The notes: a model not told the origin generated them from the letters alone. Counted from the first letter of the stretch, positions 50,593 to 63,787 are shown. The stretch is DNA of 64,000 nucleotides from Rhodothalassiaceae bacterium (GCA_026004935.1 BPKC01000001.1:558001-622000); one strand, 5' to 3'. Program-made: numbers and translations.

Positions 50593-53500
50593 ATGACGGA
50601 AAAGAAGGGCATCTCGCGCAAGGCGGCGCTGCTGTCGAGCGCAGCGACGCTGACCGCCGGCCTCATTCTGGGTGCCGCGCCGCTGGCCCTGGCCCAGCAG
50701 CAGGGCGAGGCCCCGGACCAGGCCGAAGAGATCGAGCAGATCGTGGTCACCGGTTCGCGCATCGCGCGTCCCGAGCTGACCTCGCCGAGCCCGCTGACGG
50801 TCGTGGGCGCCGAGGACTTCAAGGTCACCGGCACCATCAACACCGAGGCGCTGCTGAACCAGCTGCCGCAGGTGATCCCGGGCGTCACCCAGTTCTCGAA
50901 CAACCCGGGCGGCGGCATCGCGACCGTCAACCTGCGCGGATCTGGGCTGCTGCGCGCACCCTGGTGCTTGTGAACGGTCGGCGCCTGGTGCCGTCCACGA
51001 CGGGTGGCAGCGTCGACCTCAACAACATTCCGGCGCCGCTCATCAAGCGGGTTGAGACGATCACCGGCGGCGCTTCGGCGGTCTATGGCTCGGACGCGAT
51101 CTCGGGTGTCGTCAACTTCATTCTGAAGGACGACTTCGAGGGCGCCGAGATCAACGCGATGTATCGCGTCACCAGCCGCGGCGACTCCGCCATCAAGACT
51201 GCCTCGCTGACGGTGGGCGGCAACTTCGCGGACGGCCGCGGCAACGTCTACGGCCACATCGAGTATCTCGACCGCGAGGAGACCTTCGCCGCCCAGCGCA
51301 AGTTCACCGAGGTGGACTTCCGGGACGGCACCTGCGGCACGGTCGACAAGTTCAAGCTCGGCGAGGATGACGGCGACATCCCGTGCTTCACGGCGGGCGG
51401 CAGCTCCGGCATCCCGGAGGCGCTGATCATCGACACGAATCTGGCCGGCTACGGACTTCGGCAGCGCGCGGATGACCTTCCTGCCGGACGGCACGCCGGT
51501 GCCCTTCGGGACCAACGGCATCGGCCTCTACAACTTCGCGCCGCCGAACTACCTGCAGGTGCCGCAGGAGCGGTTCCTGATCTACACCGGCGGGCACTAT
51601 GACCTGTTCGACAATGTCCAGCTGTTCTTCGCCGGCACCTTCTCCCACAACCGGGTGCCGCAGCAGCTGGCGCCGACGCCGTTCTTCTCGATCACCAACG
51701 AGCCGGTGGACGTGAACGTCGACAACCCGTTCCTGAAGCCGGAGCTGCAGCAGATCTTCCAGCAGCTGGATGCGCTTCAGGCGCAGGATCCCTTCAACCT
51801 GCCTGAGGACGGCGTCGTGCGGCTGTTCGACATCCGCCGGCGCCTGCTCGAGGTGGGGCCGCGCTTCAATGACGACGACGTCAACAACGCCTTCCAGCTC
51901 GAGTTCGGCGCGCGCGGCGAGATCGACGCGCACACCCGCTGGGAGACCTACTACCAGGTGGGCAAGGTCGACGAATCCGGAGATCTTCCGCAACGACGCC
52001 TCGATCGACCGGCTGAAGCGCCAGCTGCTGGCGAAGCGGGCGAATGACGGCTCGATCCAGTGCGCCGAGAACGTCGACGCCGACGGCAATGTCGTCTCCA
52101 ACCCGACGGACTGCGTGCCGATCAACCTCTTCGGGCGCGGCAACATCTCGAAGGCGGCCGCCGACTTCCTGCGGCTGACGGGCGTCACGAAGACGACCAT
52201 CAAGCAGGAAGTGTGGCTCGGCAAACGGTCAACGGTGACCTGGGGCAGTTCTTCTCGCTGCCGGCGTGGTGACGTCGGCTACGCAGTGGGTCTCGAGTAT
52301 CGGCGTGTGACCGGCGCCTTCCAGGCGGACGATCCCTTCGAGCGTGGAACGGTGATCGGCTTCAACGATGCCGCCTCGCTCGCGGGCAAGTTCGACGTGT
52401 TCGAGGTCTTTGCCGAGGTGAACTATGCCTTTGATCACGGATATGCCCTTCGCCGGAGTACCTCGGCATCGACGGCGCGTTCCGCATCTCCGACTATTCG
52501 CTGGAGGGTACCGGCACGGTCACGACCTGGGCGCTGCAGGGCGAGTGGGTGCCGATCAGCGGTGTGCGCTTCCGCGGCGGCTTCCAGCGCGCCGATCCGT
52601 GCGCCGAGCATCGTTGAGCTGTTCCTCGGCCAGGGCAACAACTTCCCCGGTGCGAGCGACCCCTGCGCGGGCGCCAACCCGGTCGGCAATGCCCAGCTCA
52701 CCGCGCTGTGCGTCGCCACCGGCGTGCCGCAGGGCCAGATCGGCTCGGTGCCCGAGCCGGCCTCCGGCCAGGTGCAGGAGATCATCGGCGGCAATCCGGA
52801 TCTCGATGCCGAGAAGGCCGACACCTACACCGTCGGCCTGCAGCTGACGCCGGACTTCCTGCCCGGGTTTGCGATGTCGGTGGACTACTACAACATCAAC
52901 ATCGCGGACGCGATCGGCCAGTTCGGCGGCGGTGCCGCGAACATCATCAACAGCTGCTACTTCGTGGCGCGTGACGCGAACAGCGCCTTCTGCCAGGCGA
53001 TCCAGCGCACGGCAGACGGGCGCGATTCAGGCCGTGTTCGCCACAAACGCCAACATCGCGGTGATCGAGACCTCAGGTGTCGGACCTCGAGATCAACTAC
53101 GAGTTCGACGTCGCCGACGCCCTCGGTTCGGTCATCGGCAGCGATGACCTCGGCAACCTCAAGCTCCGGTTCCTCGGCACCTTCGTGGGCGAGAACCGGT
53201 TCAAGGCGGACCCGATCTCGCCGTTCCAGAACTGCGTCGGCTTCTTCGGCGACATCTGCGGCGAGCCGGATCCCGAGTTCCGCTGGGTGACCGACGCGCG
53301 CTGGAGCTGGCACGGCTGGACCGCCAATGTGCGCGTGCGCTGGCTCGACAAGGTCCGCAACGACCTCGGCGTCACCTTCGAGGGCTCCAACCGGACCTTC
53401 GACAAGGATCTGGAGAACCAGATCGCGAGCGCCGTGCTCAAGGCCCAGACCTATGTCGACATGTCGGTGTCCTACCAGATCACCGAGAACGTGAACTTCA

Positions 53501-53631
53501 CCTTCGGTGTCGACAACGTGTTCGACAATCATCCGCCGCTTACCGCGCAGGATGAGCAGTCGAACACCTATCCGGGCACCTACACGGTTCTCGGTACGAC
53601 CTTCTGGGGTGCGCTGCGGCTGAACTTCTAG
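50593..53631 (+). pseudogene. TonB-dependent receptor gene with about twelve single-base insertions
   Basis: A complete outer-membrane receptor of about 1008 residues can be reconstructed, but only by skipping roughly twelve extra bases: A50940, T50948, one G at 50953-50954, G51979, two A at 52223-52224, T52267, T52424, G52455, G52594, one base at 53018-53021, and G53076. The total returns to the starting frame. Reconstructed features: a signal peptide (residues 1-35), TonB box region QIVVTGSRIARPEL, plug motifs LRG-LGAARTLVLVNGRR and ITGGASAVYGSDAI, SGVVNFILKDDFEGAEI, NPDLDAEKADTYTVGLQ, and a C-terminal barrel end GALRLNF. As deposited no full product is made. The cause may be sequencing or assembly error. 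The downstream terminator is intact. Confidence 0.85.
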
Positions 53632-53747: not shown

Positions 53748-55598
53748 TCAGCCGCTCCGCCGCACGTCGAAGGCCACCGTCATCCGCGGGGTGGGGGCCG
53801 AGAAGGGCGCCGTGCCGTGCCAGCAGAAGGAGGGAAAGAGCGCAAGCAGCCCTTCCTGCGGGCAGATCCATCTGACGGCTTCCCCCCCTTCCGGGACCGG
53901 CACGGGCGGCACGCCGAAATGGATCCAGCCCTGGCGGGCCGGATCGTCTTCGCGCACGACCTCCGGCAGGCGCACATAAAGCGCGGAGCTCAGCCAGCCG
54001 GCCGGATGGTAGTGCGTCACATGAAATCCCCGGTCGGCCAGCCGCACGGACCAGGATCCCGCAAAGCGCACCGCACGCGGCCGCAAGCGCAGGAAGGGAT
54101 GGCGGCCGTCGCCTTCCGGCAGATCGGCGATGTAGCGCTCCACCGTGCGCGCGATCGCCCATTTCAAGGCGCGGATCTCGGGCTCGGCGCGCAGCAGCAG
54201 ATTGCCCAGCGTCTGGGTGCCGCCTCTGAGCGTCTGTGCGAGAGGCTGGGCGCGGGTGATGTGCAGCCGCTCGAGACAGGGCGCCAGCGCCGCCTGGAAG
54301 GCGGCGAAGTTCTCGTATCCCGGCGGCGTTTCCAGCGGCAGGGGGCGCACGAAGTGGTCATAGTCGAGCAGCCATTGTGCGCGCGCGTCGCCACCCAGCC
54401 GCCAGAGGGCTTCGAGATGCCCCAGCACCGCATAATCTTCCGGCTGCGCGGCCACATGAGGCTCGAGCTCGGCCGCACCTTCGCGATACCTCCCAAGTCT
54501 CAGGTGACAGCGCGCCCGCGTGACCCACAGCGTGCTCGCGGGAACGGAGGGCTCGCCCGCAAGCTCCGGGCGCAGAACCGAGAGCGCCTCCTCGGCCGCG
54601 CCGGCTTCCTCCAGTATCCGTCCGCGCCAGAGCGCAAGCAGCGGCTGCGCGCCGCAGGCCGCCTCGGCGCGGCCGGCGACCGCCTCGGCCTCCTTTAGCC
54701 GCCCCGCAAGCACCAGCGCCCGCAGATAGGCGCTCCAAAGTCCGAGCGCCTGCGGCGCGCGTGCCACGAGTTCCTCGAACAGGGGAGCGATCTCCTCGCC
54801 GCGCCCGTAGGCCGCCAGAATGTCCGACAGTTCCTCGGCCGCATCTGCGCGATCGGGCCGGGCCGCAAGGATCTCGCGCAGCAGCGCCATCCCCTCTTCC
54901 GCCCGCCCGGCCTCCACGAGGGCACCCGCTTGCGCGATCCGCAGACGATCGCGGTCCGCAGCAAGCGCCTCGGCCGCCCGGTAGTGGGTCAGAGCCTCCA
55001 CGCCGGCCCCCATCTCGCGCAGGAGATTGGCGAGATTGTTGCGCACCCGCAGATCCTCGGGCGCGAGCTTCAGCGCCCGTTCGAGCGTGGTGCGGGCTTC
55101 ATCCAACCGCTCCAGGGCCTTCAGCGCGCGGGCCCTGGCGAGCAGCAGGCGAACGGGCGGGCGCGCCACCAGACGTTCCGCCCGCGCCAGAGCAGCCAGC
55201 GCTTCTTCCTCATCGCCTACCTCGATCAATGCGATGCCGAGATTGATCCAGGCATCCACGAAATCCGGCTTCAGCGCCACCGCCTGCCGATAGGCGGTGA
55301 CGGCCTCGACGCTGCGGCCCAGGTCGGAGAGCGCATTTCCCAGATTGTTCCACACGGCGGGCTGGTCACGCCGGACGGCGAGCGCGCGGTTGAACCAGCT
55401 CACGGCCGTCTCGTTGTCGCCCCGTCGGCGGGCGACCGCACCCTTGAGCTGGAGCGCATCCGCCTGCGCGGGATGGCGGCGCAGAACCGCGTCCAGCAGG
55501 CGCTCCGCCTCGTCCAGCCGGCCCTGCTGCAGCGAGACCAGGGCAGCCTGCAGCTGCCCTGCGAGCCAGACCCCGTCCTGCGCCGGTGGCTGCGCCAT
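53748..55598 (-). CDS. TPR protein with C-terminal 2-oxoglutarate/Fe(II) oxygenase domain
   Basis: A 616-residue two-part protein. Residues ~1-400 are tetratricopeptide repeats: AVWNNLGNALSDLGRSVEAV and DAWINLGIALIEVGDEEEAL are textbook units, with weaker ones after. The last ~190 residues are a putative 2OG-Fe(II) oxygenase of the TPR-linked kind (2OG-FeII_Oxy_5): HVTHYHPAGWLSSALYVRLPE holds the first ligand region and FPSFCWHGTAPFSAPTPRMTV the second histidine and the arginine that grips 2-oxoglutarate. Related proteins are encoded beside TonB receptors in other alphaproteobacteria. The target of hydroxylation is unknown. It is convergent with the receptor gene and divergent from another oxygenase gene. 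Confidence 0.87.
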   Translation of the reverse strand: MAQPPAQDGVWLAGQLQAALVSLQQGRLDEAERLLDAVLRRHPAQADALQLKGAVARRRGDNETAVSWFNRALAVRRDQPAVWNNLGNALSDLGRSVEAVTAYRQAVALKPDFVDAWINLGIALIEVGDEEEALAALARAERLVARPPVRLLLARARALKALERLDEARTTLERALKLAPEDLRVRNNLANLLREMGAGVEALTHYRAAEALAADRDRLRIAQAGALVEAGRAEEGMALLREILAARPDRADAAEELSDILAAYGRGEEIAPLFEELVARAPQALGLWSAYLRALVLAGRLKEAEAVAGRAEAACGAQPLLALWRGRILEEAGAAEEALSVLRPELAGEPSVPASTLWVTRARCHLRLGRYREGAAELEPHVAAQPEDYAVLGHLEALWRLGGDARAQWLLDYDHFVRPLPLETPPGYENFAAFQAALAPCLERLHITRAQPLAQTLRGGTQTLGNLLLRAEPEIRALKWAIARTVERYIADLPEGDGRHPFLRLRPRAVRFAGSWSVRLADRGFHVTHYHPAGWLSSALYVRLPEVVREDDPARQGWIHFGVPPVPVPEGGEAVRWICPQEGLLALFPSFCWHGTAPFSAPTPRMTVAFDVRRSG

Positions 55599-55720
55599 CG
55601 CATCTCTCCCGCGCCCGGGGCCGACGGACCCGAACGTCCCCGTCCCCTTTTGCGCTTTGGCACAGACCGGCCGAAATGTGTAGGCTTGCCGCAATGGACG
55701 ATCCGGGCCGGGAGGCAGGG

Positions 55721-57010
55721 ATGGCGAGCGCCGAGGAGCTCTATCGCGAGGCATACGCACTGGCGTGCCAGGGCCGCCAGGCCGAGGCCGACGCAAGGTT
55801 GAGGAAGGCGGCCGAGCAGGGCTTCGCGCCGGCACGCTACACGCTCGCCCTCAATCTGCTGCAGCGCGACGGCCGCAAGGCCGCCGGCGCGGCGCGGGCG
55901 CTGCTCGAGCAGGGCGGCCCCACCCCACTCATTCCCGCGGCACAGCTCCTCGCCATGATCGCGCTGCTCGGCCTCGACGGTCCGCCGGACGTCGGCCAAG
56001 CCCTCGCCATCATCGAGGCGGGTGCGGGTCGTGGCGCACCGTCCTTCCTGCGCCAGATCGGTGTCGCCATGCTGCTGGCGGATGACGCCGCCGGGGCCGC
56101 GGCCGAGGGCGAGGCCCTGCTTTTCGAGGCGGCGCGGCGCGGGGACATTCTGGCGAGCCTTGCGCTAACCCGCCTGCGCGTCGAGGGCGGCCGAGACCTC
56201 GGCGGCATTCCCCCGATTCCCGCCGCCACCCGCGCGCGGCTCGCCGAGGCCGGACATCCCGCCGCCGAGCTGCCGGTTCCGACCGTGCCCGCTTCACCCG
56301 CCGCCCCGCCGCCCGTGCCGCTTGCGGCCGGGACGGCGGCCAACCTGGAGGCGGCGTGCCGGCGGCTTCGCGGGCTTCTCGATGCCGTCCCCGCCACGCC
56401 CCTTGGCGAAGAGCGCCGGGGTGCCGACGGCTATGCCGTGCGGGTCCACCGGCGGGTGTGGCCGGCGCTGGCCTGCGACTATGTCGCGACCCTCGCGCTG
56501 CCGCATCTCCAACCCTCCACGGTCCTCGATCCGCGAAGCGGGCGGATGAGGATGCATCCGGTGCGCCGCTCCCACCATGCGACCCTCTACCCCTGGGACC
56601 AGGATCTCGTGACCTGGCTGCTCGAGCGGCGGCTTGCGGCGCTGGTCGGCGCGCCGGCGGATCATGGCGAGATGCTGTGCATCCTCCACTACCCGCCGGG
56701 CGGGGAGTACCGGCCCCATCTCGATGCGCTCACCGCCGAAGGCGGCACGAGCGGTGCGGAAATCGCCCGCAGCGGCCAGCGCACGCACACGGTGCTGGTA
56801 CGGCTGTCCGGCGCGTTCGCCGGCGGGGAGACGCATTTTCCGAAGGCGGGGCTCACCTTCTCGCTCGAGCCGGGCGATGCGCTGGTCTTCCCCAATGTGG
56901 ACGAGAAGGGCGAGCCCGATCCCCGTTCGCTGCATGCCGGCTTGCCGGTCCGCAACGGCGTCAAATGGATGGCCACCAAGTGGATCCGCGCGCGCCCCTA
57001 CGTCTGGTAG
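55721..57010 (+). CDS. Sel1-like repeat protein with C-terminal prolyl-4-hydroxylase domain
   Basis: A 429-residue protein. The first ~170 residues contain Sel1/TPR-like helical repeats (AEADARLRKAAEQGFAPARY, ALLFEAARRGDILASLALT). After a Pro/Ala linker (about 175-205) comes a P4Hc-type 2OG-Fe(II) dioxygenase: iron ligands H and D in GEYRPHLDAL, the distal H in SLHAGLPVRNG, and the 2OG-binding lysine in GVKWMATKWIR; HTVLVRLSGAFAGGETHFP is the usual middle strand. ATG 55721 behind GGAGGCAGGG was chosen over ATG 55694. It is divergent from the TPR-oxygenase gene, with 122 bases between them. Confidence 0.9.
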   Translation: MASAEELYREAYALACQGRQAEADARLRKAAEQGFAPARYTLALNLLQRDGRKAAGAARALLEQGGPTPLIPAAQLLAMIALLGLDGPPDVGQALAIIEAGAGRGAPSFLRQIGVAMLLADDAAGAAAEGEALLFEAARRGDILASLALTRLRVEGGRDLGGIPPIPAATRARLAEAGHPAAELPVPTVPASPAAPPPVPLAAGTAANLEAACRRLRGLLDAVPATPLGEERRGADGYAVRVHRRVWPALACDYVATLALPHLQPSTVLDPRSGRMRMHPVRRSHHATLYPWDQDLVTWLLERRLAALVGAPADHGEMLCILHYPPGGEYRPHLDALTAEGGTSGAEIARSGQRTHTVLVRLSGAFAGGETHFPKAGLTFSLEPGDALVFPNVDEKGEPDPRSLHAGLPVRNGVKWMATKWIRARPYVW

Positions 57011-57016
57011 CGCGCA

Positions 57017-57997
57017 TCAACCCGCCTCGGGCGCTCCCCGCCGCACGCGCGCCGCAAGATCCAGCACCGCCTCGCGCGCCGGCGGGCTCGTGCCCTCGGT
57101 GGCGGCGGTGGCCGCGGCGGTCGCCATCGCGAGCCGCGAGGCCTCGATCCAGTCGTCACCCCGCATCACGCGGGCGATCAGCGTGCCGAGAAGGAAGTCC
57201 CCCGCGCCCGCAAGGCTCACGAGCGCTACCGCCGGCGGCTCCCAGCGCCAGGCCCCGCCCTCGCGCACGACGACGAGCCCCTTCGGCCCCAGCGTATAGC
57301 AGAAGGTCCGGGTCCTGCCCGCCGCCACCATGCGCCGCGCGAGCGTGAGAAGATCGCCCCGGCCGTGGCCCAGCCGCCCGGCCAGCTCCGCCATCTCGCG
57401 CCGATCGGGCTTGACGAGGTCCACGCCCGCCTCGAGCGCCGCCACCAGCGCCTCGCCGCGGGTGTCGACGGCGATCCGCGCCGACGGCGCCGCCTCGCGC
57501 ACCAGAGCGACGAGGCGCGCCATCTCCGCCGGCGCCACCCCTGCCGGCAGCGAGCCCGAGAACACGACCCACTGCGGCCCGGATGTGCGCAGCCGCTCCG
57601 CCAGCACGGCGCCGAGCTCCGCCAGCTCCTGCGCGCGCCAGCGCGGCCCGGGGTGGATGATGCGGTAGAAGCCGCCGTCGGGAAGCGTGATCTGCCAGCT
57701 CTCGCGCGTCTCCTCGGCGATGGGAAAGACCGCGCAGGGCACATCCTCCGCGTCGAGAAGATCCCTGAGCCGCGCGCCGGTCGGCCCGCCGAGCGCCGCC
57801 AGCGCCTCCACCGACTCCCGCTCCAGCCAGCGCCGGGCCATGCGCGCGACATTGATCCCGCCGCCGCCCGGATCGCGCTTGAGCCGCCGGCTCGCGAGCT
57901 TCACCTGCGGCTCCCAGGCGTCGACCCAGGCGGTGACGTCGAGCGCCGGGTTGAGGGTGACGGTCATGAGGGATCCGCGCGCCGCCATGTCCCTCAT
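57017..57997 (-). CDS. PfkB-family sugar-phosphate kinase (1-phosphofructokinase type)
   Basis: A ribokinase-fold kinase of about 326 residues (starts at 57997, 57988 or 57967 are all possible). The N-terminus MTVTLNPALDVTAWVDAW and RLKRDPGGGGINVARMARRW are those of the FruK/PfkB/LacC subgroup acting on fructose-phosphate or tagatose-phosphate. VDLVKPDRREMAELAGR near residue 200 and SLAGAGDFLLGTLIARVM near 265 (anion hole and catalytic Asp in GAGD) complete the active site. It starts one base after the pgi stop, so F6P produced by Pgi is the natural candidate substrate, which would make it an ATP-dependent phosphofructokinase like E. coli Pfk-2. Confidence 0.88.
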   Translation of the reverse strand: MRDMAARGSLMTVTLNPALDVTAWVDAWEPQVKLASRRLKRDPGGGGINVARMARRWLERESVEALAALGGPTGARLRDLLDAEDVPCAVFPIAEETRESWQITLPDGGFYRIIHPGPRWRAQELAELGAVLAERLRTSGPQWVVFSGSLPAGVAPAEMARLVALVREAAPSARIAVDTRGEALVAALEAGVDLVKPDRREMAELAGRLGHGRGDLLTLARRMVAAGRTRTFCYTLGPKGLVVVREGGAWRWEPPAVALVSLAGAGDFLLGTLIARVMRGDDWIEASRLAMATAAATAATEGTSPPAREAVLDLAARVRRGAPEAG

Positions 57998-57998
57998 C

Positions 57999-59708
57999 TC
58001 ATCCGCGTCCGACAAGACCCGCCGCGCGCGCAAACGCGACGAGGGCCGGCGGCAGCTCCGCCGCCTCGCCGCCCGCCTGCCGCAGCAGGTCTTCCGCCGC
58101 CCGCGCCCGCTCCTTGCCGAGCTCCACGCCCCACTGGTCGAAGGGATTGATGCCGAAAAGCCAGCCCTCGATGACGGTGCGGTGCTCGAAGAGCGCAAGA
58201 AGCGCGCCGAAGCCTTCCGGATCGAGGCGTTCGAGGAGCAGGATCTGATGCGGCCGTGCCCCCGGCAGCACGAGATGCGGGGCAAGCCGGCGCAGCTCCT
58301 CGCCGCCGTGGCCGGCGGCCTCGAGCGCGGCCTCCACTTCCGCGCGGCTGCGGCCGGCGAAGAAGGCCGCCGACTGGCCGAGGAGATGGGCGATGAGCGC
58401 CCGGTCGAGGTCGCCATGCCCGCTCCAGCCCGGGCGGATGCCGATCATGGTCACGACGAGGTCCCGCGTGCCCTGGTGCAGCATCTGGAAGAAGGCGTGC
58501 TGGGCGTTGGTGCCGCGCCGTCCCCACAGCGCGGACGTGCCCGGCCAGGCGAGCGGCCGGCCGTCGGCGGCGGCGACGCGCTTGCCGTTGCTTTCGAGAT
58601 CAAGCTGCTGAAGGTGGTCGACGAAGCGTTCCAGCCGGTCGGCATAGGGCACCACCACCTCGCCCTCGACCCGACGCACCGCCTTCATCCAGAAGCCCGC
58701 AAGCGCAAGCCGCAGCGGGAGGTTGGAGGGGGGCGGGGCTTCGCGCACATGCGCGTCCATCGCCCGCGCGCCGGCGAGAAGCCGCGAAAACGTCTCCCAT
58801 CCCAGCCCGAAGGCGATGGGCGCGCCGAAGGCGGATGTGAGAGAGAACCGCCCGCCGATGCTTTCCGGCACGACGAGGGTCCGTTCCGGGGCGAAGCCGG
58901 CAGCCGCGGCGCGCCCCGGCGCGGCGGTGATCGCGAGCGCCTGCGCCTCCGGCTCCGGTGCGGCGCCGGCAAGCCAGGCCCGGACCTTGCGCCAGAGTGC
59001 AAGCGTCTCCACCGTGCCGAAGGACTTGGAGGCGACGGTGACGAGCGTGCGCGCGGGATCGAGACCCGAGAGCACCGCATCGAGGCTGCTTCCGTCCATA
59101 TTCGAGAGGAAGTGAACCGGAAGGCGGCCGTCCGCCGGCTGAAGCGGCGCCAGGGCCTCCCATGCGGCCTCCGGCCCCAGATGCGAGCCGCCGATGCCGA
59201 GATGAATCATCGCGGCAAAGGGCGCCCCGCCCGCCCCTCGCCAGCGACCCGAGCGGACGTCCTCGACGAGCTCCCGCAGCCGCGCCCGGCCTTCCGCGAG
59301 AAGCGCGGCATCCCGGCGCGCGGCCGCGCTCGCGAGTCCGCCCGCGGCCGCGGCAAGGCCGGTCTCCTCCGCACGCGCCAGCCAGTGCAGGGCGGGGCGC
59401 TCCTCCGTCACATTGACGAGGCGGCCCGCAAACAGCGCCGCGCGCAGATCCGACACATGCATCGCCGCCGCGAAGCGCAGGAGCGCCCGCCAGCAGCGGT
59501 CATCCAGCAGCAGCGGGGCCTGGAACAGCGTCACCCCCGCCGCCGAAAGCGGCGCCTGCTCCTCCATGCGCTGGACGGGACGCCGCGCGATCCGCCCCGC
59601 CTGGCGCTTGAGCGCCGCGAAGGCGGCGGCCACGGCCGGATCATGGGGCGAAGGCGGCGCGGCGCCGTCATGCGCGCCGGGATCCTTCTTCAGCTCCGGT
59701 TCAGTCAT
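57999..59708 (-). CDS. pgi: Glucose-6-phosphate isomerase
   Basis: Interconverts glucose-6-phosphate and fructose-6-phosphate. It has 569 residues with two SIS-type sugar-isomerase domains. Landmarks: MIHLGIGGSHLGPEAAWEAL near residue 165, VASKSFGTVETL near 225 (phosphate-binding), the family signature GGRFSLTSAFGAPIAFGLGW near 285, the catalytic glutamate/histidine region GRRGTNAQHAFFQMLHQG near 395, and signature 2 GINPFDQWGVELGKE near 525. The ATG overlaps the stop of the upstream amidotransferase-like gene (ATGA), tying a central-metabolism enzyme to an amide-metabolism pair. Confidence 0.96.
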   Translation of the reverse strand: MTEPELKKDPGAHDGAAPPSPHDPAVAAAFAALKRQAGRIARRPVQRMEEQAPLSAAGVTLFQAPLLLDDRCWRALLRFAAAMHVSDLRAALFAGRLVNVTEERPALHWLARAEETGLAAAAGGLASAAARRDAALLAEGRARLRELVEDVRSGRWRGAGGAPFAAMIHLGIGGSHLGPEAAWEALAPLQPADGRLPVHFLSNMDGSSLDAVLSGLDPARTLVTVASKSFGTVETLALWRKVRAWLAGAAPEPEAQALAITAAPGRAAAAGFAPERTLVVPESIGGRFSLTSAFGAPIAFGLGWETFSRLLAGARAMDAHVREAPPPSNLPLRLALAGFWMKAVRRVEGEVVVPYADRLERFVDHLQQLDLESNGKRVAAADGRPLAWPGTSALWGRRGTNAQHAFFQMLHQGTRDLVVTMIGIRPGWSGHGDLDRALIAHLLGQSAAFFAGRSRAEVEAALEAAGHGGEELRRLAPHLVLPGARPHQILLLERLDPEGFGALLALFEHRTVIEGWLFGINPFDQWGVELGKERARAAEDLLRQAGGEAAELPPALVAFARAAGLVGRG

Positions 59709-60385
59709 GGGTCATGCCGTCCTCGTCCTGCGCGGCGGCGGGCGGCGGCGACCAGCGCCGCGAACAGCCGCCGCGTGCTCGCCTGCCAGAACAGATACTC
59801 GGGATGCCATTGTACGCCGATGAGAAACCAGTCGTCCTCCGTGCCTTCCACCGCCTGGATGATGCCCTCATCGTCCCAGGCCACCGCCCGCAGCCCCTCG
59901 CCCGGCTCCGCGACGGCCTGGTGGTGGATGGCGTTCACCCTGAGCCGCCGGCGGCCGAAAAGTTCGGCGAGACGGCTGTCGGGGGCGATGGTCACGGATT
60001 TGACGGGAAGTGGCGTCCGCCGGGCGCGCGCGCCGGCCGCGGCCTCGGAGAGGTCCGTGTGGAGCGTGCCGCCCAGCGCGACATTGATCATCTGTGCGCC
60101 CCGGCACACGCCCAGCACCGGGCGACGGTCGCGCGCGGCCTCGGCGAAGAGCGCAAGCTCGAGCGCATCGCGCGCGGGATCGATGCGGGCGGTGGGGGTG
60201 AGGTGGCCGGCATACAGGCGCACGTCGATGTCGTCGCCGCCGCCGAGCAGCAGGCCGTCGAAGGCGTCCTTCGGCCGTCCGCCGCCCGGCACCACGCGCG
60301 CCGCCCGCGCTCCGGCCGAACGGAGCAGGAGCGCGATCAGCCACCAGTCCACCGGCGTGCCGCCGGCACCGTCCGTCATCCACAC
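59705..60385 (-). CDS. Class I glutamine amidotransferase-like protein (peptidase C26 / gamma-glutamyl hydrolase type)
   Basis: A triad glutaminase-fold protein of about 226 residues. The nucleophile cysteine is in PVLGVCRGAQMINVALGG, and the histidine and glutamate are in GVQWHPEYLFWQ, as in PuuD-like gamma-glutamyl-GABA hydrolases. DGLLLGGGDDIDVRLY is the usual oxyanion-strand region. The start is uncertain: GTG 60385 is used here, but the first beta strand of the fold (RRPRPLVWMTDG) begins at a CTG (60406) that overlaps the upstream stop as CTGA. Its partner upstream is an amidoligase gene; the pair is recurrent in proteobacteria and presumably makes and breaks, or feeds ammonia to, an amide bond. 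Confidence 0.87.
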   Translation of the reverse strand: MWMTDGAGGTPVDWWLIALLLRSAGARAARVVPGGGRPKDAFDGLLLGGGDDIDVRLYAGHLTPTARIDPARDALELALFAEAARDRRPVLGVCRGAQMINVALGGTLHTDLSEAAAGARARRTPLPVKSVTIAPDSRLAELFGRRRLRVNAIHHQAVAEPGEGLRAVAWDDEGIIQAVEGTEDDWFLIGVQWHPEYLFWQASTRRLFAALVAAARRRAGRGRHDP

Positions 60386-60402
60386 GAGCGGGCGCGGGCG
60401 CC

Positions 60403-61380
60403 TCAGTCGCACAGGAGCGCCTCCACCAGATCCGCCCATTCCTCGCGGCTGCCGGTAAAGCGGCGATAGGCGCGGGCGAGCCGGCCCAGCATCGTGGCGT
60501 CTTCCGCCAGCTCCTCCACCATGACCCAGCGGTTCCACTCGCCGGTGATCGACCAGCCCTTCTCGCCGATGCGCGAATCGGGGACGCGGTAGTGATAGGT
60601 CGGCCGCGCCTTCACGCGCACGTCGCGGACGTGGCGCTCGAGCAGGGCGGCGTCCACATGGGCGAACAGCGGCAGCAGATCGAGCCCGCGGTTGCGGGTG
60701 GCGTTGTCGGAAAGATAGTCCTCCATGAACTGGGGCCAGTCCGGCGCGTAGTCCGGGTCGAGGACGAGGCGCGCGTAGGAGCGCGGGAAGGGATTGGCGA
60801 AGGCGAAGAGCCGGCGCAGCATGTCGCGCCCGGCCGTGCGGCGCAGCCAGTCCTCCATCACGAGATAGGCGCGGAACTGCCGCAGGACGACGGCGATGTC
60901 GGTGGCCGGCACCTCCGGATTGAACTGCATGGCGAAGGCGTAATAGAGCGCCTCCCCCGTGCCCCGCGCGCCCCTTTTCGCCAGGGCCAGCTGAAGGTCG
61001 TCGAAGGCCGGGATGTCCGCGATTTCGATCGGCGGGCCGACGATTTCCGCCGGCACGAAATGGCTCGCCAGCTCGCCGAGCTTGCCGAGAAGTTCGGTCT
61101 CGATCTCCCTCCAGCGCTCGTCCTCGGCCTTGGCGTGCAGATAGATCGCGTCGAGCTTGACGGCGAAGCGCCCGAAGCGGGTCTCCTCCACCACCCAGGC
61201 GTTCGGCCCCTCCTCGCGCGCCCTGCCGCCGAAGAGCTCTGTGACGGTGCGCGCCGCCTCCTCGAGCGGCAGCTCGCCGAACTCGATCTCGATGCCGACG
61301 CGGCGCGGGCGGCCGTCCGCCGTCTCGGGCAGCGGCGGCTGCTTCGGCTCGGGGATGGTCGCGGTGCCGCTCTTCGCCAT
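60403..61380 (-). CDS. Amidoligase family protein (glutamine-synthetase-like COOH-NH2 ligase)
   Basis: A putative ATP-dependent ligase joining a carboxylate to an amine, of the amidoligase family related in fold to glutamine synthetase and gamma-glutamylcysteine ligase. The 325 residues start at ATG 61380. Visible blocks: RRVGIEIEFGELPLEEAA near residue 25 (the acidic ExE metal-binding strand), VVEETRFGRFAVKLDAIYL, AEIVGPPIEIADIP near 115, MQFNPEVPATD, NRGLDLLPLFAHVD near 235 and RPTYHYRVPDSRI plus ITGEWNRWVMVEELA near 285. It is the first gene of a four-gene overlapping operon with a C26-type hydrolase, pgi and a PfkB kinase. Substrates are unknown. Confidence 0.88.
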   Translation of the reverse strand: MAKSGTATIPEPKQPPLPETADGRPRRVGIEIEFGELPLEEAARTVTELFGGRAREEGPNAWVVEETRFGRFAVKLDAIYLHAKAEDERWREIETELLGKLGELASHFVPAEIVGPPIEIADIPAFDDLQLALAKRGARGTGEALYYAFAMQFNPEVPATDIAVVLRQFRAYLVMEDWLRRTAGRDMLRRLFAFANPFPRSYARLVLDPDYAPDWPQFMEDYLSDNATRNRGLDLLPLFAHVDAALLERHVRDVRVKARPTYHYRVPDSRIGEKGWSITGEWNRWVMVEELAEDATMLGRLARAYRRFTGSREEWADLVEALLCD

Positions 61381-61505
61381 GGTGGTGGTATCTCCTTTGG
61401 CTGGCGATCGCCGGGCTCCTTGGCGTACCGGTCCCCCTTCGGCTAGCATGCCGCCTGCCGGCAAGGCCAGCCGCCAGGTGGCCGCAGATCATGGGGAAGC
61501 CAGGG

Positions 61506-62549
61506 ATGGCCGCAGACGGCGACGGCGACATTCCGCTGAAGATGCGGGCCATGGTCTTCTCCGGGCCGGGCCGGCCGCTGACGCTCGAGCGGGTGCCGGT
61601 GCCGCGTCCCGGTCCGCGCGAGGTGCTGATCCGGGTCGAGGCCTGCGGCGTCTGCCGCACGGACCTGCATCTCGTCGACGGCGAGCTTCCCGAGCCGATG
61701 CCGGGCGTGATCCCGGGCCACGAGATCGTCGGGCGCGTGGTGGCGGTCGGCGGGGAAGCGGCGGCCGCCGGACTTGCGCATCTCGCCCCGGGAAGCCGGG
61801 TCGGCGTCGGCTGGCTCGCCTCCACCTGCGGGCTGTGCCGCCACTGCCGGCAGGGGCGGGAGAATCTGTGCGACAAGGCCCGGTTCACGGGCTACACCCG
61901 CCACGGCGGCTATGCCGAGTATCATCTGGCCGATGCGGGCTTCGTGTATCCCCTGGAGCTCGCGCTCGATGACGCCCATGCGGCGCCGCTCATGTGCGCG
62001 GGGCTGATCGGCTACCGCAGCTACCGGATGATGGGGGATGCGCTCGCCGTCGGCATCTACGGCTTCGGCGCGGCGGCCCACATTCTGTGCCAGGTGATGG
62101 TGGCGGAGGGCCGGCGGATCTTCGCCTTCACGCGCCCGGGCGATGCGGCCGCGCAGGAATTCGCCCGCGGGCTCGGGGCGGTCTGGGCCGGGGATTCGAC
62201 GGCCCTGCCGCCCGAGCCGCTCGATGCCGCGCTCATCTTCGCGCCCGTCGGCGCGCTGGTGCCCGCGGCGCTCAAGGCCGTGCGCCCGGGCGGGCGGGTC
62301 ATCTGCGGCGGCATCCACATGAGCGACATCCCGGGCTTCGCCTACCGGGAGCTGTGGGGCGAGCGGGCGATCATGAGCGTCGCGAACCTCACCCGCGCGG
62401 ACGCCGACGCCTTTCTTGCCCGCGCCCGGGGCCTCGAGCTTGAGACCCATGTGAAGGTCTATCCGCTGGAGGCGGCGAACGAGGCGCTCGCGGATCTCAG
62501 GGCCGGGCGGCTTCAGGGCGCGGCGGTGCTGGTGACGGAGCGGCGATGA
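61506..62549 (+). CDS. Zinc-dependent alcohol dehydrogenase (MDR family)
   Basis: A 347-residue medium-chain dehydrogenase. The catalytic zinc site is ACGVCRTDLH (Cys near 45) with GHEIVGRVV, and the structural zinc site is complete: CGLCRHCRQGRENLC near residues 110-125. The Rossmann domain begins VGIYGFGAAAHILCQVM near 190, a GxGxxA/G variant. GYTRHGGYAEYHLADAGFVY is typical for the AdhP/zinc-binding ADH subgroup acting on primary alcohols. ATG 61506 follows GGGGAAGCCAGGG; ATG 61491 is an alternative. Its stop overlaps the kynU start, so the two are translated together. Confidence 0.92.
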   Translation: MAADGDGDIPLKMRAMVFSGPGRPLTLERVPVPRPGPREVLIRVEACGVCRTDLHLVDGELPEPMPGVIPGHEIVGRVVAVGGEAAAAGLAHLAPGSRVGVGWLASTCGLCRHCRQGRENLCDKARFTGYTRHGGYAEYHLADAGFVYPLELALDDAHAAPLMCAGLIGYRSYRMMGDALAVGIYGFGAAAHILCQVMVAEGRRIFAFTRPGDAAAQEFARGLGAVWAGDSTALPPEPLDAALIFAPVGALVPAALKAVRPGGRVICGGIHMSDIPGFAYRELWGERAIMSVANLTRADADAFLARARGLELETHVKVYPLEAANEALADLRAGRLQGAAVLVTERR

Positions 62550-63787
62550 TGGACGCGCCCGGCGCCGGCAAGGAGGATGGCGCGCCGCCCCTGCCGCCGG
62601 GCCTCGACCAGGAGGCGGTGCGCGCGATGGATGCGGCCGACCCCCTCGCCGGGTTCAGGAACCGCTTCGTCATCCCCGACGGCGTCATCTATCTCGACGG
62701 CAACTCGCTGGGTCCGCCCGCGGCCGGGACGGCCGAGCGGCTCGCCGCCTTCGTGCGCGCGGAATGGGGCGGGCGGCTCATCCGCGGCTGGTACGAGGGC
62801 TGGATGGCGCTGCCCGAGCGGCTGGGCGATGCGATCGGCCGGCTCATCGGCGCCCCGCCGGGGGCCACCATCGTCGCCGATTCCACTTCCGTCAATCTCT
62901 ACAAGGCGGCGCGCGCGGCGCTCGAACTCGCCGCCGGTCGGTGCAGGGTGCTGATCGACGAGGCGGATTTTCCGACCGACCGCTATATTCTGGCGGCCGC
63001 CGCGGCCGAGGCCGGGATGAAGCTCGAGGCCGTGCCGGCGGCCCGCCTCGCCGCCGCCATCGACGAGGACACCGCGCTCGTCGCCTTCAGCCATGTCGAC
63101 TACCGCACCGCCGAGGTCCGGGATCTGAAGGCGCTCACCGCGGCGGCCCACGCGGCCGGCGCGCGGGTGCTCGTGGATCTGTCGCATTCGGCGGGGGTCC
63201 TGCCGGTCGAGCTTGCGGCAAGCGGTGCGGATCTGGCCGTCGGCTGCGGCTACAAGTTTCTGAACGGCGGGCCGGGCGCGCCGGCCTTCATCTCGGTGAG
63301 GCCGGATCTGCTTGCGGTCGCCCGCTCGCCGATCCCCGGCTGGATGGCGCATTGCGACCCCTTCGCCTTCGCGCCGGAGTTCGTGCCGGCCGCGGGCATA
63401 CGCCGCTTCGCCTGCGGGACGCCGCCGGTTCTGGGGCTGCAGGCGCTCTCCGTGGCGCTGGAGAATTTCGCGGAGCTCGACGTCGCCGCACTCGCCGCCA
63501 AGGCGCGCCGGCTCGGCAGCCTCTTCCTCGCGACCCTCGAGGCCCGCCGCGGTCCGCTGGGCGGGGCGCTGCTCTCGCCGCGGGACGAGGCGGGCCGCGG
63601 CGCCCAGGTGTCGCTGCGCCAGGCCGAGGCGCGCCGGCTGATGGGTGAGCTTGCCGCGCGCGGCGTGATCGGGGACTTCCGGCCGCCCGACGTGATGCGC
63701 TTCGGATTCTCCCCGCTCATCCTCACCTATGACGAGGTCCGGCGCGCGGCGGAGATTCTGGCGGATCTGCTCGCCGCTCACAGATAG
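62546..63787 (+). CDS. kynU: Kynureninase
   Basis: A PLP enzyme that cleaves kynurenine to anthranilate and alanine in tryptophan breakdown. The 413 residues match the family. FRNRFVIPDGVIYLDGNSLG near residue 40, FVRAEWGGRLIRGWYEGWM near 70, ADSTSVNLYKAA near 110, DEADFPTDRYIL near 145, DLSHSAGVLPVEL near 210 and the PLP lysine in VGCGYKFLNGGPGAPAF near 235 are all intact. CGTPPVLGLQAL is the substrate-side loop. No tryptophan dioxygenase or formamidase gene lies in the window. Its tail overlaps the convergent cardiolipin synthase gene by ten bases. Confidence 0.95.
   Translation: MMDAPGAGKEDGAPPLPPGLDQEAVRAMDAADPLAGFRNRFVIPDGVIYLDGNSLGPPAAGTAERLAAFVRAEWGGRLIRGWYEGWMALPERLGDAIGRLIGAPPGATIVADSTSVNLYKAARAALELAAGRCRVLIDEADFPTDRYILAAAAAEAGMKLEAVPAARLAAAIDEDTALVAFSHVDYRTAEVRDLKALTAAAHAAGARVLVDLSHSAGVLPVELAASGADLAVGCGYKFLNGGPGAPAFISVRPDLLAVARSPIPGWMAHCDPFAFAPEFVPAAGIRRFACGTPPVLGLQALSVALENFAELDVAALAAKARRLGSLFLATLEARRGPLGGALLSPRDEAGRGAQVSLRQAEARRLMGELAARGVIGDFRPPDVMRFGFSPLILTYDEVRRAAEILADLLAAHR

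Follow-up and report, generated by a model that had tools for sequence, protein, structure and literature searches.

In the gamma-glutamyl-putrescine pathway, the glutamine-synthetase-fold ligase PuuA is paired with PuuD, a C26-family hydrolase of gamma-glutamyl amides. Pairs of an amidoligase (Amidoligase_2, PF12224) and an amidotransferase were reportedly predicted by Iyer et al. in 2009 (doi 10.1039/b917682a), a study cited by PMC10580990. Another two-gene unit, MurT-GatD, is presented in PMC3267633 and PMC5871853 as a co-transcribed ligase and class-I amidotransferase that acts in peptidoglycan amidation; MurT is a Mur ligase relative, unlike the PF12224 amidoligase considered below. Closer in its ligase component, an amidoligase gene accompanied by a glutamine-amidotransferase-type gene occurs in OM43 phages, where such pairs are discussed in PMC10580990 as possible modifiers of the cell wall or of secondary metabolites; the partner there is a PF13522 amidotransferase, whereas at the present locus it is a C26 protein, followed downstream by pgi and pfkB. 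In the literature searched, we found no study of the biochemistry of a PF12224 and C26 pair, in keeping with the initial annotation of this DNA, which had called the pair biochemically uncharacterised.

Gene arrangement and predicted products

The window analysed here is a stretch of 64,000 nucleotides, and the locus within it comprises the following features.

60403..61380, minus strand: amidoligase (Amidoligase_2, PF12224), 325 amino acids, ATG at 61380, stop at 60403; Pfam 157.8 bits, E 5.7e-46
59705..60412, minus strand: C26-type class-I glutamine amidotransferase-like hydrolase, likely GTG start at 60412; Pfam Peptidase_C26 157.8 bits
57999..59708, minus strand: pgi, glucose-6-phosphate isomerase, ATG at 59708; Pfam PGI 380.8 bits
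57017..57997, minus strand: PfkB-family hexose kinase, Pfk-2-like, ATG at 57997; Pfam PfkB 120 bits, TIGR03168
61381..61490, no strand: intergenic region separating the divergent amidoligase and zinc alcohol dehydrogenase genes; members of the family have or lack the pair at this junction
61491-62549, plus strand: zinc alcohol dehydrogenase (ADH), divergent from the amidoligase
62546-63787, plus strand: kynureninase-like gene (kynU), beyond ADH and divergent from the amidoligase

All four minus-strand genes named in the initial annotation are present and overlap or abut, and their Pfam and NCBIfam identities agree. The amidoligase ATG is preceded by AAAGGAG, a good ribosome site. Two of the three junctions were as first described: the pgi start and the C26 stop form an ATGA overlap, and the PfkB ATG follows the pgi stop one base later. 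The third was not, as the most likely C26 start is the GTG at 60412, which overlaps the end of the amidoligase gene by 10 nt in place of the CTGA or short gap proposed. Overlaps of this kind (10 nt, ATGA) imply that translation of pgi is coupled to that of the genes before it. A promoter scan at the four-gene locus found no sigma-70-like promoter, and a terminator scan found no internal terminator in the unit, the sole terminator-like site lying on the plus strand. Because the genes overlap or abut, and given the outcome of both scans, one operon is the natural reading of this polycistronic arrangement, and the four genes would be co-transcribed. Base composition is uniform over the operon and gives no hint of recently acquired foreign DNA.

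Beside pfkB, at 53748-57010, two genes encode 2OG-Fe(II) oxygenases, a TPR fusion on the minus strand and a second enzyme on the plus strand; both genes also lie beside pgi-pfkB in the relative G001. At 51472-53631 (plus strand), what seems to be the C-terminal portion of a TonB-dependent receptor occupies two or more reading frames, which suggests frameshifts, through either sequence errors or a broken gene.

The amidoligase matched PF12224 far above the family cut-off (157.8 versus 22 bits) over model positions 2-245 of 245, and the GxEIEF motif and other family-invariant residues are intact in alignments of 12 and 38 sequences. A sequence search found no meaningful match to a solved structure among the relatives of the protein. 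A confident AlphaFold model built with 38 sequences (pLDDT 88.5, pTM 0.88) gave PafA, glutamine synthetase, plant glutamate-cysteine ligase (GCL) and YbdK as leading PDB matches in Foldseek, with weak E-values (0.012 at best). All four belong to the glutamine-synthetase superfamily, and the protein is best read as a putative carboxylate-amine ligase with a predicted glutamine-synthetase fold. Neither the amidoligase nor the C26 protein matched a defence system in PADLOC, and a search for phage copies found none.

In the C26 protein, the catalytic residues C100 (within C100-R-G), H200 and E202 are invariant in 10 homologues, completing the expected Cys-His-Glu set. Its closest solved structures are Lin1909, the 7d4r/7d50/7d53 amidotransferases and PuuD. 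Against the PuuD equivalog model NF008471 (gamma-glutamyl-GABA hydrolase), it scored 66 bits where the cut-off is 266, and the protein is therefore PuuD-like rather than PuuD. The locus thus resembles PuuA-PuuD in joining a ligase of predicted glutamine-synthetase fold to a C26 hydrolase, and differs from it in this score, in its PF12224 ligase family and in having no polyamine oxidation genes adjacent. By analogy, the comparison suggests that the pair may make and cleave a gamma-glutamyl-type amide.

The active-site segments ESNGK, GTNxQHAFFQ and INPFDQWGVELGK of pgi align to solved PGI and the PGI domain is matched, with a score of 448 bits against the NCBIfam equivalog NF001211 (cut-off 492); judging by these results, pgi encodes a diverged member of its domain family. 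It is present in single copy in the source genome (G000) and therefore has a housekeeping role. The PfkB protein passed the TIGR03168 hexose kinase cut-off (221 versus 216.4 bits) and scored below that of the Pfk-2 equivalog NF007632 (139.5 versus 353); it aligns to E. coli Pfk-2 and contains the GGGGINVAR and GAGD motifs. PfkA (PF00365) is absent from the source genome and from six others of its family, and because none of these seven genomes has it, the PfkB protein is probably a 6-phosphofructokinase, its presumed use of fructose 6-phosphate (F6P) following from the pgi linkage, the similarity to Pfk-2 and the absence of PfkA. Pgi and PfkB together resemble a glycolytic pgi with a Pfk-2-type pfkB, converting glucose 6-phosphate (G6P) to F6P and on to FBP, with PfkB the only phosphofructokinase candidate in the source genome; what sets them apart is that, among 151 genomes, pgi lies beside a cut-off-passing PfkB only in the source family.

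Conservation of the pair and of its neighbourhood

We compared the locus with three samples. A search with the single amidoligase protein gave no confirmed relatives, and an alignment-based scan gave 590. From related amidoligases we took 80 loci, spanning Alpha- and Gammaproteobacteria and other phyla; a class-wide sample added 24 further amidoligase-bearing genomes, with a slight overlap with the 80 loci possible; and a sample of 151 genomes (the source genome and 150 relatives) contained 12 with an amidoligase. These same 12 are the only ones with an amidoligase among 401 genomes of the order.

The C26 gene lies directly downstream of the amidoligase in 74 of the 80 related loci and adjoins it in 22 of the 24 class-wide genomes. 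Among the 11 amidoligase-bearing relatives of the source genome it adjoins in nine, directly downstream in eight and divergently in one. The recurrence of the pair, as the initial annotation had it, is borne out by these frequencies. Pgi and pfkB present a different picture: they were found near the amidoligase in none of the 80 loci and none of the 24 class-wide genomes, and 10 of the 11 relatives have the pair (or the amidoligase) with neither gene nearby. When all 12 amidoligase genomes of the order were examined, pgi stood beside the amidoligase only in two, both of the source family: the source genome, which alone also has pfkB beside amidoligase-C26-pgi, and G006. A survey of this linkage had been proposed with the initial annotation; it showed the linkage to be neither strictly unique to one genome, since it occurs in two genera of one family, nor conserved as a unit. 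From these neighbourhoods we conclude that the pair is conserved and that its linkage to pgi and pfkB is not; amidoligase-C26 is a two-gene module of a known type, here at a location particular to the lineage.

Gene orders within the source family place this position more exactly. The source genome has kynU-ADH / amidoligase-C26-pgi-pfkB, and G006 has kynU / amidoligase-C26-pgi, with no pfkB. Three relatives carry the junction between kynU and pgi without the pair: G002, a complete genome with amidoligase nowhere in it, has kynU / pgi-pfkB; G005 has kynU / pgi; and G004 has kynU-ADH / pgi. Because of these three, we take the kynU/pgi junction as the family background, and it is precisely there that the pair is either found or missing. 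Pgi and pfkB are adjacent in two relatives, G002 and G001; in the latter the genes downstream of them match those of the source genome, and no amidoligase was detected there at a locus only partly covered, as the contig breaks inside pgi. These orders indicate that pfkB was gained or lost independently of the pair within the family. Throughout the family, kynU keeps its place next to either pgi or the pair.

The pgi proteins of the source genome and G006, which belong to two genera, are 41% identical; with the pair upstream of pgi in both, the arrangement is therefore not very recent. Judged from the gene orders, it is not required within the family, though kept in two genera. Amidoligase and concatenated trees joined the source copy to that of G006 weakly (0.53 and 0.69), inside a well-supported three-member clade, and a C26-only tree did not group the two. 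Because the first grouping is weak and the C26 tree disagrees, a single origin of the pair in the source family is only modestly supported.

Competing accounts of the locus

Our preferred explanation, to which we assign a probability of about 80%, is that a two-gene amidoligase-C26 cassette is flanked on one side by a divergent promoter region and on the other by a glycolytic pgi(-pfkB) unit specific to the lineage, and that the co-location reflects transcription shared through gene order and not a shared substrate. We favour two independent modules because the modules reassort freely among relatives. A single transcript, initiated upstream of the amidoligase, would cover all four genes. The ligase would use ATP to couple a carboxylate, with glutamate as the foremost candidate, to an amine, and the C26 protein would hydrolyse the resulting amide or a related one of gamma-glutamyl type, in the way that PuuA and PuuD act on putrescine. 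Independently of the pair, pgi and the phosphofructokinase would take G6P to F6P and FBP. The initial annotation had read the coupling to pgi and pfkB as the mark of a sugar-phosphate amidation pathway, in which the amidoligase would amidate an F6P-derived sugar acid or amino-sugar carboxylate, the C26 protein would turn the product over, and pgi and PfkB would control precursor supply. Four overlapping or abutting genes with implied translational coupling argue for such a pathway, as does a second genus in which pgi still follows the pair; selection for the arrangement is possible. That pathway is nonetheless very improbable, and the comparison does not support it: pgi and pfkB are missing near the amidoligase throughout the 80 loci and 24 genomes, the modules reassort within the family (G002, G004, G005 and G006), with pgi-pfkB lacking the pair in G002 and pair-pgi lacking pfkB in G006, and pgi, as the only genomic copy, has its housekeeping role. 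We give equally little credence to a family-restricted version, in which the pair was recruited to sugar-phosphate metabolism in the source family, made an amide from an F6P-derived acid, this being why translation of pgi is coupled to it. A tight four-gene operon that splits into two independent modules on comparison with relatives illustrates that gene order can mislead functional inference.

The main mechanistic rival to an amide-cleaving C26 protein is an ammonia supply like that of MurT-GatD, in which the C26 protein would be a glutaminase feeding the amidoligase and the pair would form one amidotransferase. The frequent stop-start overlaps of the two genes suggest a complex, the co-transcribed MurT-GatD unit offers a precedent, and the C26 protein also matches the class-I GATase domain; this match reaches only 45.9 bits, far below the 157.8 for Peptidase_C26, and the hydrolase PuuD is among the nearest solved structures. 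We regard the glutaminase as possible, if rather unlikely; like the weak Foldseek E-values, this alternative counts against our preferred explanation. A role for the pair in envelope or ionic stress, forming and removing an amide on a lipid, a wall component or a compatible solute, is likewise a tentative proposal with the odds against it. It is compatible with two modules and adds a role to them, the place before pgi then being incidental or serving growth coupling. Its support comes from other genomes: VTT/DedA-domain membrane proteins make up 9 of 79 scanned immediate neighbours, and 10 of 13 VTT matches in 115 loci lie at most 0.8 kb from the amidoligase, in four different arrangements, these counts being inflated by shared descent. 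KdpE-like regulators and KdpD-like kinases in some relatives of the same order, a mechanosensitive channel beside the pair in Halomonadaceae, and an amidoligase-response regulator-histidine kinase-UppP-DedA run on an Azospirillum plasmid point the same way. No such neighbour stands beside the pair in the source window, however, and most loci have unrelated neighbours.

Neighbours of the pair at other loci

The VTT/DedA genes lie beside the pair at L020-L023, L063, L085, L109, L134, L138 and L151, and their four arrangements are divergent upstream, downstream after trpE-amidoligase-C26, YqaA-like downstream, and same-strand upstream. Taken as a lead, the neighbours of the pair elsewhere point to envelope or ionic stress more readily than to glycolysis, and the recurrent VTT/DedA neighbours are a better guide to its function than pgi.

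A mechanosensitive-channel association over 46 loci was set aside, as it was inflated by antisense shadow ORFs and reflected mainly Halomonadaceae synteny; the Salinisphaera neighbour proved to be pyruvate dehydrogenase E1. KdpE-like response regulators follow the pair in some relatives of the order (L020-L022 and L024) and KdpD-like kinases lie near it in L021 and L024, those L021 proteins that were scored falling well under the KdpD and KdpE equivalog cut-offs. An amidoligase lacking a C26 partner on the Azospirillum argentinense plasmid AbAZ39_p2 (L177, 4061-8578) precedes a response regulator, a histidine kinase, an undecaprenyl-diphosphate phosphatase and DedA, an envelope-type context. 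Beside other C26-less amidoligases, in L057, L061 and L065, lies a divergent class-V-aminotransferase-like gene.
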